The notes below the pieces were generated by a model that was not told the origin of the DNA, searched no databases, and saw only the letters and a list, made by a program, of their open reading frames with translations. A stretch of DNA of 38,815 nt from the NCBI GenBank assembly GCA_030611045.1, contig JAUWQN010000008.1, positions 1-38,815 of the forward strand, read 5' to 3'. Each line of letters begins with the position of its first letter. Position 1 is the first letter of the stretch. Position numbers and translations under genes: made by a program. Origin of the DNA: Methanosarcinales archaeon. Lineage in GTDB: Archaea; Halobacteriota; Syntropharchaeia; Alkanophagales; Methanospirareceae. Below are positions 9,264 through 31,600 of the stretch, piece by piece.

Positions 9264-9426
9264 GTCATGGATACCATCCTTACACTATTATTGCCCGCTA
9301 TCTTTATCTATAATAACATACAACTATCCGTACGTACATAGTAAAAGTGGTAAACTTTAGATTGCCTCATACTCGAAGGAGATGCTTCTGGTATGGTATA
9401 ATACACACAAAAGGGAGCTGGTATGT

Positions 9427-9666
9427 ATGAAAGTTACGGTAAAATTCTTTGCGCAATTCCGTGAAATTGTTGGGGAGAAACAGAAAGAGGTAGAGATAGA
9501 GGACGGTATGACGCTGCACGATATTATATTCCGTTTGAGAAATGAGTATCCTGACTTAAAGAAACAGAAGATAATAGTATCGCTGAACCATAAATATGCT
9601 CACCCGGAAGAGATACTAAAAGATAACGATGAGGTTGCCGCTTTTCCGCCGGTAAGTGGAGGATGA
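9427..9666 (+). CDS. moaD: MoaD/ThiS-family sulfur carrier (C-terminal GG); ORF track start 9382 is probably too early
   Basis: MKVTVKFFAQFREIVGEKQKEVEIEDG...DEVAAFPPVSGG. Confidence 0.9.
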   Translation: MKVTVKFFAQFREIVGEKQKEVEIEDGMTLHDIIFRLRNEYPDLKKQKIIVSLNHKYAHPEEILKDNDEVAAFPPVSGG

Positions 9667-9673
9667 TGAGAAG

Positions 9674-10033
9674 ATGATTACGAAAGAGGAGTTCTCGATT
9701 GATGAACTTGTACAGAAGATGAAAACGCCGGAGATGGGTGCTATCGTAACGTTTTTAGGCGTTGTGCGAGCCGAAGGGGAGATAAAAGGGATGAACGTAG
9801 AGATATACAGTGAAATGGCGGAGAACGAGCTGAAGAAACTGGAGCGAGAGGCTCACGAGAAGTTCGAGGTCGAAGCAGTGGAAATCGTGCATCGAGAAGG
9901 TTCACTCAAAGTCGGTGAGAACATCGTTGTCATTCTGGTGGGTGCGAAACACCGAAAGGAAGCTTTTAGAGCTTGTGAGTGCCTGATAGACGAGTTAAAG
10001 AAGAGAGTGCCTATCTGGAAGAAAGAAGTGTAG
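9674..10033 (+). CDS. moaE: Molybdopterin synthase catalytic subunit MoaE
   Basis: GAIVTFLGVVR, EIVHREGSLKVGENIVVILVGAKHRKEAFRACE, VPIWKKE. Confidence 0.92.
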   Translation: MITKEEFSIDELVQKMKTPEMGAIVTFLGVVRAEGEIKGMNVEIYSEMAENELKKLEREAHEKFEVEAVEIVHREGSLKVGENIVVILVGAKHRKEAFRACECLIDELKKRVPIWKKEV

Positions 10034-14938: not shown

Positions 14939-15088
14939 TTATCTGCAGCAACAACCGCTGCTAGAGGGAAGCAAATTATGCCATTCATTTTCCCGGCACT
15001 CGATGCATATCTTTATAATTCCAAGTTCCCGGTGGTTTGCTCGAAGCAGCGCCACACCGTCCTTACCACATATCTCGCATTTGGTCAT
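14939..15088 (-). CDS. 49-aa zinc-ribbon-like protein with Cys-rich C-terminal tail
   Basis: Hand translation MTKCEICGKDGVALLRANHRELGIIKICIECRENEWHNLLPSSSGCCCR*; CxxC...CxxC plus GCCCR end; similar to ORF 26183-26326; below ORF-track size cut-off. Confidence 0.7.
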   Translation of the reverse strand: MTKCEICGKDGVALLRANHRELGIIKICIECRENEWHNLLPSSSGCCCR

Positions 15089-21067: not shown

Positions 21068-22324
21068 CTAACCGCCACTCACCCACGAAAGGATAATGAT
21101 CTCATCATTCCCGTGGACTTCGGTCTTTATACCCTTCCGGTTTTTGATATTCATCCCGTTAAGGTAAACGTTGAATGAACGTTTGATTTTTATGCTGCCT
21201 GTGTCGCGGTCCGTGGCCATCACCGTCTCCCTGAATTTGTCCCCATATTTATCTGTCAAGCTCTTCATCACGTCTTCTATAGTTGCCTCGCCGTCACAAT
21301 CGAGTTCTGTCCATCTCGTTTTTGTCAATTCATGTAAAGAAAGCGGGAATTTTACTTTTATCGGCTGCACTTCCTTCTCCTCTTTTAGCCCGGATTGGTT
21401 CACCGGTGATTCTGAGATTCCGACCAAGCTATGCCGCAGTGTGAAGTCCCACTCTTCATTCTGCCAATCCTTCACCACGCTTTCACGCGGTCTAATGCCA
21501 TTCAGCCAGGACAGACGGTCCTCTTTCTGGTCTTCCATGCCTCTTCGCTTGGCGGTTAAATCGGGATAAACGGTTATCCACGTTTTTTGCGGTGGTGGCG
21601 TGGGATACTCTCGATAACAACTACGGCTTATGATAGCATTCGGAAGATACCTCGAAGCGATTTCATAAGCTCGTTCAATTTCTTCCAGCGTGGGACGCCT
21701 CGTTACCTGTTCATAAGCGAAGATCGGCACGAACGGATTTATGCGGTATTTTATATCTTTGTTTACGGACGCGAGAAACTTTGCTATTTGCTCTATTTCT
21801 GTAGCATCAACAATCCCGGGCATGTAAACCGTCTGAATAAGCAGCTCTATCCCGGACGCGTTCAACTTCTCGATTGCGCTCAACACCGGTTTATTCGATT
21901 TTCCCGTGTACGAGTTATGAACGTCCTCGGAAAACGCTTTCACATCTACATGCGCCTCTGTCAAACCCGCCTCTTCCAGCTCAGTAACATAGGTCTCATC
22001 CTCACCCAGCGCATAGCCGTTGGTCATCAGCACGATTTTCTCAAAGCCCTTTTCTTTTAACCCTTTGACCAACGTCAATAGGTACTCCTTATCAAGCGTG
22101 GGCTCACCACCAGTAATCATCGTCTCAGCAGGCACCTTCCCATAGTAGTTCAGGCATGCCTGCTCCATTCGCTCGAGGGTCTCATCCGCAGTGAGCAGTG
22201 TGCCTCCCCCATCTCGTGCGGGTCTGAAACAACCTTTACAGTGGAAATTGCAGCCTGTAAGCATGAACCATACTCGCGGTTCGATCTCAGAAAGCGTGAA
22301 ATACTGCAACCCTCTTTTATTCAT
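21068..22324 (-). CDS. Radical SAM protein fused to C-terminal ubiquitin-like (MoaD/ThiS-type) domain ending in GG
   Basis: FMLTGCNFHCKGCF (CX3CX2C), ITGGEPTL; C-term KVKFPLSLHEL...DGEATIEDVMKSLTDKYGDKF...VYLNGMNI...HGNDEIIILSWVSGG. Confidence 0.87.
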   Translation of the reverse strand: MNKRGLQYFTLSEIEPRVWFMLTGCNFHCKGCFRPARDGGGTLLTADETLERMEQACLNYYGKVPAETMITGGEPTLDKEYLLTLVKGLKEKGFEKIVLMTNGYALGEDETYVTELEEAGLTEAHVDVKAFSEDVHNSYTGKSNKPVLSAIEKLNASGIELLIQTVYMPGIVDATEIEQIAKFLASVNKDIKYRINPFVPIFAYEQVTRRPTLEEIERAYEIASRYLPNAIISRSCYREYPTPPPQKTWITVYPDLTAKRRGMEDQKEDRLSWLNGIRPRESVVKDWQNEEWDFTLRHSLVGISESPVNQSGLKEEKEVQPIKVKFPLSLHELTKTRWTELDCDGEATIEDVMKSLTDKYGDKFRETVMATDRDTGSIKIKRSFNVYLNGMNIKNRKGIKTEVHGNDEIIILSWVSGG

Positions 22325-23042: not shown

Positions 23043-23951
23043 GTGAAGAAGAAACGACTCTTGGTAGTTTTAACGGTGGTAGTGCTGCTTTCGGCTTTCG
23101 CAGGTGCCGGCATGCAAAACGCATTTGCCTCCACGCCTTCAGCATCAGCGGATGATGGGATAAAGATTGTTTCTTTTAGCACGGATAAGGACGTATACAG
23201 TGCGAAGAAAGAGATGACAATTTTCTTATCGGTGTATTCACCTGAGGACATAAGTGATGTTTCCATCAAAGTTTCGGGCGTGAAGAGCAGAATGGGGGTA
23301 TATTACGTATCATATTCGAGTAAACAAAATTTGACCGCCGGCGAGAATAATGTGTCGTTCAACAAGACACTGCCATCATGCTCTAAATGTGCTGGGATAA
23401 GCCAGGGGACGTATGTTATTGAGGCCTCGGTAACTCATGACGATGAAGTCGTGACTGCAACGCACAGTATAGCTATCACGTCTAAGTCCGACCAAATAAT
23501 CACTGTAAACATCGATGTTGAAGAAGCAAAGCGATTGATTGATTCTGAATCCGAAGATCTCATTGTACTGGATGTGAGAACCGAGGAAGACTATGACCCA
23601 GCACATATTCCCGGTGCTCTCTCGATCCCACTTTCAGAGTTGAGTAATAGAACTGAAGAGCTGAACACGAGCACAAAAATCGTCGTGTATAGCGCAAACG
23701 GGAGTAATAGCACCATAGCTTGTGATATACTCATAAAAAATGGATCGGGACGGGTTTATAATGTGCTCGGTGGACTAAACGCTTGGAACGAGAGTGGATA
23801 TGCTGTCGTCTCTACCGCACAGTCAAACTCCGATTTGCCAGGCTCTAACGCAACCTCAATCCTTGAAGAACCGGGTTTTGGAGCAGTTCTTGCAATTGCG
23901 GCATTGCTTGTCGTTGCTTATCGGGTAAGACGGCGAAGGTTAGATGAGTGA
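23043..23951 (+). CDS. Secreted rhodanese-domain protein with PGF-CTERM-like anchor (GTG start)
   Basis: N-terminal signal peptide; [29 protein letters not shown]-term [25 protein letters not shown]. Confidence 0.82.
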
Positions 23952-25921: not shown

Positions 25922-26182
25922 ATGCTCGAAAAGGTAAAAGAAGTAATAGAGAAGGAGATAAAACCGCTCTTAGCGCTGGAAGGCGGCAGTATAGAACTGG
26001 TGAGCGTGGATGACGGCGTAGTGAAGGTGCGATTGACTGGTGCGTGTGCAGGATGCCCGATGAGCCAATACACACTGGTGAACTTTGTGGAGGCGACACT
26101 GAAGGACAGAGTGCCGGAAGTGAAGTCGGTAGTTTCGGCAAGTGACCAAAGGGCACAGTGGACGGATATGATGTGCAGGTGA
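25922..26182 (+). CDS. NifU C-terminal-domain Fe-S scaffold protein
   Basis: IKPLLALEGGSIELVSVDDGVVKVRLTGACAGCPMSQYTL. Confidence 0.92.
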   Translation: MLEKVKEVIEKEIKPLLALEGGSIELVSVDDGVVKVRLTGACAGCPMSQYTLVNFVEATLKDRVPEVKSVVSASDQRAQWTDMMCR

Positions 26183-26326
26183 ATGAAAATGGTGAAGTGT
26201 GAATTATGTGGGACGGAAACGGATGCTGCGCAGGAACTGTACGGGCGAATGATGTGCCGGGACTGCTATGAGTATTATAAGGCGTATGATGAGAGACGTT
26301 CCAGAGGATGCTGCTTCTGTAGATGA
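26183..26326 (+). CDS. 47-aa zinc-ribbon-like protein with Cys-rich C-terminal tail
   Basis: Hand translation MKMVKCELCGTETDAAQELYGRMMCRDCYEYYKAYDERRSRGCCFCR*; immediately follows nifU stop and overlaps the thiF 5' end; same architecture as ORF 14939-15088. Confidence 0.7.
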   Translation: MKMVKCELCGTETDAAQELYGRMMCRDCYEYYKAYDERRSRGCCFCR

Positions 26327-27047
26327 AGCAGAATTGAGGAAATACGCGAGACAGATAAAGATATTTGGGGAAGAGGGACAGAAGAAGCTTAAAAAAGCGA
26401 AGATTACAATTGCTGGCGCTGGTGGGCTCGGTTCTGTATCCGCCACATATTTAACGGTTGCTGGGGTTGGGAGGATACGGATCGTTGATGATGATGTTGT
26501 AGAGCTGAGCAATTTGAACCGCCAGATACTGCATTGGGAGAAGGACATAGGTAAGAAGAAGACGGAATCGTTTGAGGAGAAGCTCTCGCAGATGAATTCC
26601 GAGGTGGAAGTAACGGTGCTGAGTCAGCGAATAGATGAAGATAACGTTGCGGAGATCGTCAGAGATTCTGATGCGATAGTAGACGCGATGGACAACTTTC
26701 AAACGAGATACTTACTCAACAAGGTGGCGTTGCAAAAGAATATTCCTTTTTTTCATGGGGGTGTGTATGGTTTTGAAGGTCAGGTGACCACGATAATTCC
26801 CGGGAAGACCGCTTGCTTAAGATGCATATTCCCGGAAGAGCAACCTCCAGAGACGTTCCCTGTAATAGGTGCCACATGTGGCGTTATAGGCAGTATTCAA
26901 GCAACAGAGGTGGTGAAATGTATAGTAGGCGTGGGAGAGCTGTTGACCAATAGACTTCTGGTCTGGGATGGCATGGATACAAGGATGGATGAGTTTGTGG
27001 TTGAAAGGAACCCGACGTGTGAGGATTGTGCAGATTTAATATCTTAG
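26289..27047 (+). CDS. E1-like ThiF/MoeB/HesA adenylyltransferase (start 26286 or 26289 preferred over 26268)
   Basis: YARQIKIFGEEGQKKLKKAKITIAGAGGLGSVSATYL, RIVDDDVVELSNLNRQ, GATCGVIGSIQATE, paired CxxC. Confidence 0.93.
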   Translation: MRDVPEDAASVDEAELRKYARQIKIFGEEGQKKLKKAKITIAGAGGLGSVSATYLTVAGVGRIRIVDDDVVELSNLNRQILHWEKDIGKKKTESFEEKLSQMNSEVEVTVLSQRIDEDNVAEIVRDSDAIVDAMDNFQTRYLLNKVALQKNIPFFHGGVYGFEGQVTTIIPGKTACLRCIFPEEQPPETFPVIGATCGVIGSIQATEVVKCIVGVGELLTNRLLVWDGMDTRMDEFVVERNPTCEDCADLIS

Positions 27048-27071: not shown

Positions 27072-28304
27072 ATGAAACTCAAGCCATGTATCAAGGGTTA
27101 TAAGAAGGGCACGCATCGTGCAGTTCCCCCAGAGGATACTTTTACTCGCGTGGATCCAAAGATGCCCGCCGCTGGTGTTACACGCGTTGCGGACATAACC
27201 GGGCTTGATAGGATAGGGATACCGGTATTCTCAAGCATACGACCCACCGCGGAGGGCAGTGCAATATCAGTGTATAATGGTAAAGGGACGACAGCAGATG
27301 AAGCGAGAGTTTCCGCAATGATGGAGGCGATAGAACGATACTCCGCGGAAGTCGGTGACAGCGAACTTTTAGTGGATAGTTATTCAGGGCTTAGCGAGAA
27401 GGAGAACGTGTTAAACCCCAAAGATTTGATTCTTCCGGATTATGTGAAGGATGTCGAGGATGTTCGTATCCCGTGGGTGGAAGGTTATGATTTGATGAAA
27501 GAGGAGGAGATATATGTGCCTGCAAATGCGGTATTCCATCCATTACCATCACGATACGATAGGGTCAGACTGTTCCGGTCGAATACGAACGGTTTGGCAG
27601 GTGGTAACGAGCTGGAAGAGGCTATTTTTCACGGGCTTGCGGAAGTGATCGAACGCGACGCATGGTCGTTGGTGGAAATAACACGGAATACAGGCCCTTA
27701 TGTGAGAATAGACGGGGGAGAGATTCGTAACCTTATAGATAAATTCCTGGATGCTGATGTTTCCGTGCTTATACGGGATATAACAAGTGACATCTGTGTA
27801 CCGACTTTCGCGGCCGTTTCGGATGACCAGATGTTGAGGGACCCTACACTGCTCACTATTGGGATGGGTACACATACGAATGCGAGCGTTGCGATAAAGA
27901 GGGCGGTTACAGAGGTTGCACAGAGCAGACTCACGCAGATACATGGTGCGAGAGAAGATACCACGACCGCGGACGTAAGAAGGATAATGGGGTACGAGTG
28001 GATGCGAAAGCAGAACGAGCACTGGTTTGAAACCTCGGAGGATGAAGATTTAGAGAGCGTGGAATCCTTTTCCGTGGATAATGACGATTTCCTCGATGAT
28101 ATAAAGCACGTAATGGCACGGTTAAAAGCGGGGGGATTAGAGCGAGTGATCGTGGTGGACTTGACGAGAGAGGAGATAGGCGTGCCCGTGGTGCGGGTAA
28201 TCGTGCCGGGACTGGAGATGTACGGTGTTGATGGTGAACGGATAGGTAGGAGGTGCAGGAATGCAAGAAAGAAAAGTAGTCGTGTTCCTGGGACCGAGTC
28301 TTGA
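27072..28304 (+). CDS. ycaO: YcaO-domain protein (methanogenesis marker protein 1; McrA thioglycine formation)
   Basis: [77 protein letters not shown]. Confidence 0.94.
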
Positions 28305-28908
28305 TGCTGACGCTGCAAAGGAGATATTTGATGCTAATTATAGACCGCCTGCGAGTCGAGGAGATATTTTCAGGGCGGTACAAGAAGGAGCAGGGGTAAT
28401 TGGATTGATAGATGGCGTATTCTTTCAAGCCTGTGCAATAGCGCATCGTGAGATACTGTACGCGTTGGAAGAAGGCGTGAAAGTGATAGGTGCCTCGAGC
28501 ATGGGCGCTTTGAGAGCTTCTGAACTTGATGTTTATGGTATGGAGGGTGTTGGTAAGGTATATGAACTTTATAAGAATGGCGAGCTGGTTTCGGACGATG
28601 AGGTTGCATTACTTTTTGATCCTGAGACATTTAAGCCGTTATCCGAGCCGTTGGTAAATATACGGCACAATCTTGAACTCGCGGAAGATAAGGGGATAAT
28701 AACTAAAGTGGTGGAAGAGAAAATATTGAAGGTTGCGAAATCGTTGTATTACCCGGAGAGGGATTATGAAATAATTTTATCAATTGCGGAAGAAGAACTA
28801 AACTTGGATTTGAAGCGGCTCAAGGAGTTCTTGCGAGAGGAAAGAAGAGATTTGAAGCGCGAAGATGCGATTGCGGCGTTGAAGCGGATAAGGGAGATAA
28901 TGGAATGA
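28261..28908 (+). CDS. tfuA: TfuA-family protein
   Basis: [72 protein letters not shown]; overlaps ycaO. Confidence 0.94.
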
Positions 28909-28909
28909 G

Positions 28910-29386
28910 ATGAATAAAAATGCTTTACTTCTGTTAGGATGTCCGGAACTGCCCGTTCAGACGGGCATTGCACTATACCTTGCGAGCAAGCTAAAAGAAG
29001 CAGGACTGGAGGTATTTGTCGCGGGCACAGATGCCGCGCTCCACCTATTAAAAGTCTCTGACCCGCAAGGGCACTATGTAGATGCAGAGAAGATGATGAA
29101 CTTGGATAAATGCATAGAATATCTCGCGGAAAAGAGAATTGATTTCGATCTGTGCACCGTTTTCGTGCATAACGATGCCGGGATATCGTATCTCGCGACT
29201 GTGCAAAGCATATCAAACGCAAAACTCTTCGCAATCATTTTCGGTAGCGATGCCGAGTCCATCTCTGGGCAGATCAATTTCAAGTGCGAGAAGATTGTTG
29301 CCAAAGCGGTTCATAATCCAATGCCATTGAAGATGATTATAGACGCCATGATGAAGGAGGTAAAGAGATGGGCTGTATCGAATTGA
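28910..29386 (+). CDS. DUF1890 family protein
   Basis: LLLLGCPELPVQTGIALYLASKLKEAGLEVFVAGTDAALHLLKVSDP; followed by DUF1894-like gene. Confidence 0.75.
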   Translation: MNKNALLLLGCPELPVQTGIALYLASKLKEAGLEVFVAGTDAALHLLKVSDPQGHYVDAEKMMNLDKCIEYLAEKRIDFDLCTVFVHNDAGISYLATVQSISNAKLFAIIFGSDAESISGQINFKCEKIVAKAVHNPMPLKMIIDAMMKEVKRWAVSN

Positions 29387-29649
29387 TGGATTATACGATT
29401 TTATTATCGAACATTTCGTTTAAAGAAAGCCGAGAATATATAAAGGGGAATTTTAAAGAGGTTTACGAAGTAGAACCCGGATATAAACTGTTTGATGTTT
29501 ATTTGATTGGTGTTTCACCGATTTTTGTAGGAGTAGAAGACGGTTGTGTAATATTCCCGTATGTGAAGCCATGTCATGGAACTTTCGTATTGAAGATTGA
29601 AGGTGAAGAAGAGATTGATAGGTTGAGAACAACGCAGAGAGTTGTTTAG
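29368..29649 (+). CDS. DUF1894 family protein
   Basis: MGCIELMDYTILLSNISFKESREYIKGNFKEVYEVEPGYKLFDVYLIG; overlaps preceding gene. Confidence 0.7.
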   Translation: MGCIELMDYTILLSNISFKESREYIKGNFKEVYEVEPGYKLFDVYLIGVSPIFVGVEDGCVIFPYVKPCHGTFVLKIEGEEEIDRLRTTQRVV

Positions 29650-31351: not shown

Positions 31352-31600
31352 ATGAGCGCCATTTATAAATCAATGCGTGACGAAGAACCAGAGGAGGAGA
31401 CCGCAGAAGAACGAAGAAGAAGGTGGATTGAACGAGAAGTGGCGAAAGCGGAATCTAAGACCGTGCGATGTTCAAAGTGTGGTAAAGAAGTGGAGGAATT
31501 TGCGGATAGAGCCGGACGAATCCTCTGCCTGGATTGTTATGCAGAAGAAGAAACGGCCGAAGGTGGCGGTATGCCTGAAATAGGCGGAGGTGCAGGATAA
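31352..31600 (+). CDS. Small zinc-ribbon protein
   Basis: VRCSKCGKEVEEFADRAGRILCLDCYAEE. Confidence 0.6.
   Translation: MSAIYKSMRDEEPEEETAEERRRRWIEREVAKAESKTVRCSKCGKEVEEFADRAGRILCLDCYAEEETAEGGGMPEIGGGAG

Follow-up and report, generated by a model that had tools for sequence, protein, structure and literature searches.

What does a very short protein with a cysteine-rich end contribute to an operon whose other genes point to thioamidation of McrA? McrA is the methane-activating enzyme of the methane-consuming ANME-1 archaea, and its thioamidation is, to our knowledge, among the very few protein backbone thioamidations known. The question is raised by a 47-aa open reading frame (ORF), referred to here as the ribbon, on a 38,815-nt stretch of DNA from a Methanosarcinales archaeon that was analysed as a whole and is called the window. 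Where the initial annotation had placed it, the ribbon ORF is indeed present, its first base lying directly after the stop codon of a gene for an Nfu-type NifU protein and followed in order by a ThiF/MoeB-like E1, YcaO, TfuA, DUF1890 and DUF1894 (Table 1). The E1 and YcaO genes are both single-copy in this genome. The YcaO protein scores 481.9 bits against TIGR03266 (cut-off 365) and the TfuA protein 295.6 bits against NF033432 (cut-off 235.2), so that both pass the NCBIfam thresholds, and the earlier proposal that the pair acts in thioamidation is supported by the predicted identity of the operon as a McrA-glycine thioamidation locus.

Table 1. Features of the window discussed in the text, with the residues and motifs that make up the 47-aa ribbon.
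Feature	Position	Strand	Remarks
MoaD/ThiS-type ubiquitin-like protein ending SGG	9382..9666	+	candidate thiocarboxylate carrier for E1
MoaE	9656..10033	+	
Second Cys-tailed ribbon, 49 aa, tail SSGCCCR	14939..15088	-	arsenic/thiol operon
Rhodanese-domain protein	23043..23951	+	apparently exported (PGF-CTERM), active Cys replaced (VYSANG)
NifU C-terminal-domain (Nfu-type) protein, CAGC motif	25922..26182	+	Pfam NifU E=1.3e-27
Cys-tailed mini zinc finger (ribbon, 47-aa ORF)	26183..26326	+	conserved ORF; unclassified family
Parts of the ribbon			knuckle C6/C9; second pair C25/C28; helix 26-41; tail GCCFCR
ThiF/MoeB-like E1	26268..27047	+	ThiF E=3e-79; closest structures ThiF, MoeB
YcaO, McrA-glycine thioamidation equivalog (methan_mark_1)	27072..28304	+	TIGR03266
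TfuA-related McrA-glycine thioamidation protein	28261..28908	+	NF033432
DUF1890	28910..29386	+	closest solved structure MTH0777, 1kjn
DUF1894	29368..29649	+	closest solved structure MTH0776, 1z9v
Third ribbon, 82 aa, Gly-rich tail	31352..31600	+	relatives adjoin second YcaO clade

The translation of the ribbon ORF, MKMVKCELCGTETDAAQELYGRMMCRDCYEYYKAYDERRSRGCCFCR, matches the window letter for letter and overlaps the E1 ORF by 59 nt. Homologues start at MV[KE]CE with a GGAGGTG or GGTGA ribosome site upstream, and in the window the stretch AGGTGAATGAAAATGGTG contains such a site, normally spaced for initiation at Met3. Translation therefore probably begins at Met3 (26189) and yields a protein of 45 aa encoded by 26189-26326. 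Of 51 ANME-1-family genomes, 21 carry orthologues with both core and tail, as does one genome outside the family, and all of these orthologues share a CxxC-x15-CxxC core. Across codons 1-27 of 18 sequences the median pairwise dN/dS is 0.15 with no pair above 1, and pooled pS is 0.67 versus a pN of 0.19; the core is evolving under purifying selection. The residues C6, C9, G10, E12, T13, C25 and C28 and one tail cysteine are invariant in the alignment. One copy, in the 56%-complete assembly G004, is frame-broken. The initial annotation had staked its reading on conservation of the ORF and of its tail cysteines and on dN/dS, and the reading survives on each of these points.

At least three tail cysteines are retained in nearly all orthologues, including those at loci that lack E1, and the tails are otherwise varied (GCCFCR, GCCSCW, CGGCCCR, GCGCCSCGYTK, CCCCR, GGCGCLCE, GGCGCRCGCGWR and YCKCQGSCW). 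The number and spacing of the cysteines drift between orthologues, as in CCFC, GCGCLC and CKCQGSC, a pattern unlike that expected of a fixed catalytic site or of the core of a ribosomally synthesized and post-translationally modified peptide (RiPP). A cysteine tail is present in the absence of E1 (G003, G006) and at loci where DUF1890 is the gene that follows the ribbon (G066, G067, G072, G025), and since it is kept where no E1 overlaps, the frame of the E1 gene does not account for the tail. The ORF is short and overlaps the start of E1, as a chance ORF or frame-overlap artefact might, but such an origin has a negligible probability in view of the purifying selection, the conserved ribosome site and start, and the tail kept without E1, its conservation being enough to refute it. 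Furthermore, the combination of CxxC-x10-20-CxxC with at least three cysteines in the last eight residues occurs in no ORF of 200 random windows (first-order Markov), compared with two ORFs in the real window, the ribbon and the second Cys-tailed ribbon of Table 1.

The ribbon gives no match to any Pfam or NCBIfam family with matches up to E=1 allowed. Its AlphaFold2 model has a mean pLDDT of 82 and consists of strands, a helix that starts at the second CxxC, and a tail of low confidence (53). A search with this fold returns generic treble-clef, LIM and RING matches, all with E >0.2 and none significant, and candidate known families for the ribbon were therefore set aside, by sequence and by fold alike. 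With fewer than 70 aa and two CxxC motifs the ribbon has the size and motifs of a zinc-finger micro-protein, a class in which some archaeal members do not bind zinc and for which AlphaFold2 cannot separate zinc-binding from zinc-free knuckles (PMC11241148). Taken together, these data indicate that the ribbon is a real, conserved and unclassified protein of 45-47 residues with a predicted zinc finger and a Cys-rich tail.

The steadiest neighbour of the ribbon is Nfu, the NifU gene lying directly upstream at 18 of 22 ANME-1 ribbon loci and also in G081, and the order Nfu-ribbon-E1-YcaO-TfuA(-DUF1890-DUF1894) recurs across ANME-1. At the other four loci the ribbon precedes DUF1890-DUF1894, with Nfu absent and no YcaO alongside. 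The tailed ribbon occurs in 20 of the 28 genomes that carry clade-A YcaO, defined as at least 70% identical to the window YcaO, versus 1 of 23 others (Fisher p=7e-7, phylogeny ignored), and in the mixed genera g5 and g12 it is found only in genomes with clade-A YcaO. It is not a constant part of the McrA-thioamidation locus, as shown by the four loci without YcaO and by eight clade-A genomes without a tailed ribbon (G007, G008, G009, G013, G017, G033, G063, G068), several of whose assemblies are incomplete. Outside the ANME-1 family, G081 (L125) has a NifU-ribbon pair with the tail GGSCGGCYGCR, flanked upstream by MoaE and downstream by pieces resembling ArsM and ArsP, and in G036 NifU is followed by a ribbon ending RFCM.

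The census divides the initial annotation's picture of the locus: the placement of the ribbon in a thioamidation block and the preference for a sulfur or metal role stand, but the E1 does not appear to be its dedicated partner. Seven genomes (G003, G005, G006, G025, G066, G067, G072) carry a Cys-tailed ribbon without intact E1 or TfuA, and G009 has NifU-E1 with no ribbon. In G015 (MoaE-NifU-ribbon-E1-MoaD) and G017 (NifU-ribbon-E1) the ribbon tail ends ISGSYE and is free of cysteine. As the ribbon also accompanies TfuA-less YcaO, it is not bound to the trio of E1, MoaD/ThiS and TfuA. Two loci, L040 (G003) and L034 (G006), have the order NifU-ribbon-YcaO-NifU, in which a second NifU follows YcaO; E1 and TfuA are absent there.

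The paralogue that had been assigned to an arsenic operon exists; its tail ends GCCCR, and it sits between an Acr3-like SBF transporter and an MtrA-like gene in a region with ArsP, ArsR, thioredoxin and DsbD. Its 55-aa relatives, with the tails CAFCK, CAVCK, CPFCK and CPCCR, are conserved in FrhB-NifX-ferredoxin-IscU-Mrp clusters (L059-L065), gene names that were read from the sequences and tblastn matches, not from Pfam. These sulfur, Fe-S and arsenic contexts are in keeping with the earlier preference for a sulfur or metal role over a RiPP core. The relatives of the third, Gly-tailed ribbon adjoin a second, divergent YcaO clade (~45-52% identical) that is TfuA-less (in G008, G016, G017, G018, G023, G024, G027, G032, G035, G060 and G061). 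With the tailed ribbon beside clade A and the Gly-tailed ribbon beside the second, both ANME-1 YcaO clades neighbour mini treble-clef genes. The Gly-tailed ribbons, present in at least 11 ANME-1 genomes at loci including L156, L157, L158, L155, L161, L047 and L048, are ~50-100 aa long and end in GGGAG, GAGAG or GGGG. TIGR04165, a Cys-rich peptide of methanogens, does not match the 47-aa ribbon and matches the Gly-tailed paralogue trivially. Other archaeal short ribbons, in G389 (L126:3922-4050), G225 (L128) and G380, G320 and G354 (L130-L132), have C-terminal cysteines (SCCCF, NCCQCT, SACI), and one of them adjoins flavodoxin, rubrerythrin-like and ferritin-like genes.

TfuA hydrolyses thiocarboxylated ThiS and thereby supplies sulfide to YcaO (PMC8153245, PMC13063428). 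E1 and TfuA occur together in 17 genomes, TfuA alone in two and E1 alone in two, and strong MoaD matches are found in eight of nine TfuA-positive versus none of 11 TfuA-negative genomes tested. This co-occurrence matches the known ThiS-thiocarboxylate/TfuA/YcaO relay and suggests MoaD/ThiS and TfuA as the partners of the E1. The protein has an E1 fold and co-occurs with a MoaD/ThiS protein ending in GG, its activity being predicted; judging from the co-occurrence, it most likely makes thiocarboxylated MoaD/ThiS for both TfuA-YcaO and MoaE. MoaE is present in 44 of 51 genomes irrespective of E1, whereas strong MoaD tracks E1 and TfuA, so the E1 probably serves the whole thiocarboxylate pool, and a role as MoeB only was rejected for the same reason. 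A radical SAM protein at 21068-22324 (minus strand) carries at its C-terminus a ThiS-like domain that ends in GG and is kept in many ANME-1 genomes, including some in which no ThiF/E1 was detected.

At ten ribbon loci, the 5 kb upstream of the ribbon include a rhodanese domain on the same strand, and no rhodanese other than the window copy was found in this genome, which is 99% complete. The window protein has a signal-like N-terminal stretch and a C-terminal PGF-CTERM anchor, and the active cysteine of the domain is replaced in G000, G005, G006, G010 and G022. These export features and the missing cysteine make it unlikely to feed a cytosolic E1, and it was discarded as the cytosolic sulfur donor of the relay. 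The motif is VYSANG in some ANME-1 genomes and VYCRSG, with the catalytic cysteine kept, in others.

Most likely, then, the ribbon helps to handle sulfur or metal in its operon rather than being a peptide product, and the reading that fits best is that of an accessory polythiol protein acting on sulfur or soft metals, through a mechanism that we infer from sequence and gene context. Our favoured but tentative proposal, to which we give somewhat less than even weight, is that the ribbon is a translated accessory of an archaeal sulfur-delivery operon whose tail thiols take part in the sulfur relay to McrA thioamidation. A single putative zinc site of the treble-clef/LIM type would fold and dock the protein, followed by the helix and the flexible Cys-rich tail, and the tail thiols could reversibly carry soft ligands, either sulfane sulfur or a thiophilic metal. 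Such a ligand might come from Nfu or another sulfur source and pass to the E1 that makes thiocarboxylated MoaD/ThiS or to the sulfide-consuming TfuA-YcaO that thioamidates McrA, with the ribbon acting as an auxiliary and not as a core catalyst. The proposal draws on the conserved gene order, the tracking of clade-A YcaO, the retention of the tail and the co-occurrence of E1, MoaD/ThiS and TfuA, together with the Nfu-ribbon pair near MoaE outside ANME-1, the Cys-tailed relatives in IscU/Mrp and arsenic operons, the hydrolysis of thiocarboxylated ThiS by TfuA, and a sole rhodanese that looks exported and lacks its active cysteine. It is weakened by the clade-A genomes without a tailed ribbon, the Nfu-E1 pair of G009, the four loci with only DUF1890/DUF1894 beside the ribbon and the Cys-free tails beside E1 in G015 and G017, and sulfur supply could do without a carrier in sulfide-rich habitats. 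A broader version, rather improbable as it stands, is that Cys-tailed mini treble-clefs form an undescribed class of archaeal sulfane-sulfur carriers, with paralogues serving E1/ThiS-TfuA-YcaO (McrA, in ANME-1), IscU/Mrp Fe-S assembly and arsenic detoxification; here the ribbon would replace a cytosolic rhodanese, which the genome appears to lack.

In a second reading, which we regard as doubtful, the ribbon would serve Nfu and Fe-S assembly as a metallochaperone or metal buffer; its metallothionein-like tail would bind Fe, Cu, Ni or As(III), and its link to YcaO would reflect shared regulation of sulfur and metal genes only. In favour of it, Nfu is the most constant neighbour, a second Cys-tailed family accompanies NifX, IscU and Mrp with its window copy near Acr3, ArsR and ArsP, and the variable number and spacing of cysteines are more in keeping with soft-metal binding than with a catalytic thiol in a fixed place; the statistical link to YcaO clade A and the four loci where DUF1890/DUF1894 replace Nfu as neighbours count against it. 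It is unlikely that the ribbon is a zinc-finger micro-protein like the C(P)XCG proteins of haloarchaea, with a regulatory or scaffolding role and a tail for protein contact or redox sensing only. Archaeal zinc-finger micro-proteins share the size and two-knuckle layout of the ribbon and have diverse regulatory phenotypes (PMC11241148, PMC6562870), Brz regulates the neighbouring bop gene (PMC2253796), and the generic LIM, RING and treble-clef fold matches would agree with such a role, which nevertheless leaves unexplained why the tail holds on to at least three cysteines yet varies at its other residues. Far less probable is a RiPP precursor, or a substrate thioamidated or persulfidated by the adjacent YcaO-TfuA, even though a short ORF with a Gly/Cys-rich tail next to YcaO/TfuA is the usual RiPP layout. 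Instead of a leader, the conserved part of the ribbon forms a predicted folded domain of the CxxC-CxxC kind; no leader precedes a core with a conserved site, and the position of such a core is not fixed. We saw no export or tailoring genes linked to the ribbon, the scores of YcaO and TfuA are those of McrA-specific equivalogs, and the ribbon also occurs away from YcaO. The earlier speculation that the GCCFCR tail is itself modified thus gained no positive evidence, given the drifting cysteines and the lack of a leader peptide.

Encoded in a McrA-thioamidation operon and with sisters in operons of Fe-S and arsenic genes, the ribbon is a concrete candidate for a missing component, and it adds to the archaeal micro-proteome an unclassified family that standard annotation can miss. 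Even if it were only a generic zinc micro-protein, it would be a good annotation catch.

Among known systems, the best fold match to the ribbon is the C-terminal zinc domain of FmdE (TA1109, 2gvi; 32 columns at 1.3 A within a matched chain of 201 residues), which at E=0.24 is not significant. The N-terminal zinc finger of TtuA/Ncs6 has a similar CxxC-x15-CxxC and belongs to a thiocarboxylate/E1 sulfur system, and the profile match to the [4Fe-4S] U34-tRNA thiolase (6scy), at E=0.18, is likewise not significant. Unlike TtuA/Ncs6, the ribbon stands alone, has no PP-loop domain and carries a Cys tail; the Gly-tailed paralogue matches Pfam TtuA_LIM_N with E=0.0039, whereas the 47-aa ribbon has no Pfam match. 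The likeness to the archaeal C(P)XCG micro-proteins HVO_2753 and HVO_0758 of Haloferax volcanii and Brz of Halobacterium, drawn by description only, lies in a single archaeal domain of <70 aa with two knuckles, and the ribbon departs from them in its extra Cys tail, in a CELCG...CRDCY core without CPxCG, and in being repeatedly linked to genes of sulfur, Fe-S and thioamidation functions. The window YcaO and TfuA are members of the methanogen YcaO-TfuA-ThiS module by the curated cut-offs, and E1 and MoaD/ThiS co-occur with TfuA in ANME-1; the published descriptions of that module that we consulted include no Cys-tailed ribbon. ArsD-type As(III) metallochaperones and metallothioneins have a vicinal cysteine cluster able to bind soft metal. 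The ribbon differs from these in its zinc-finger core and resembles them, by description, in its own vicinal cysteine cluster and in having a paralogue within an arsenic operon.
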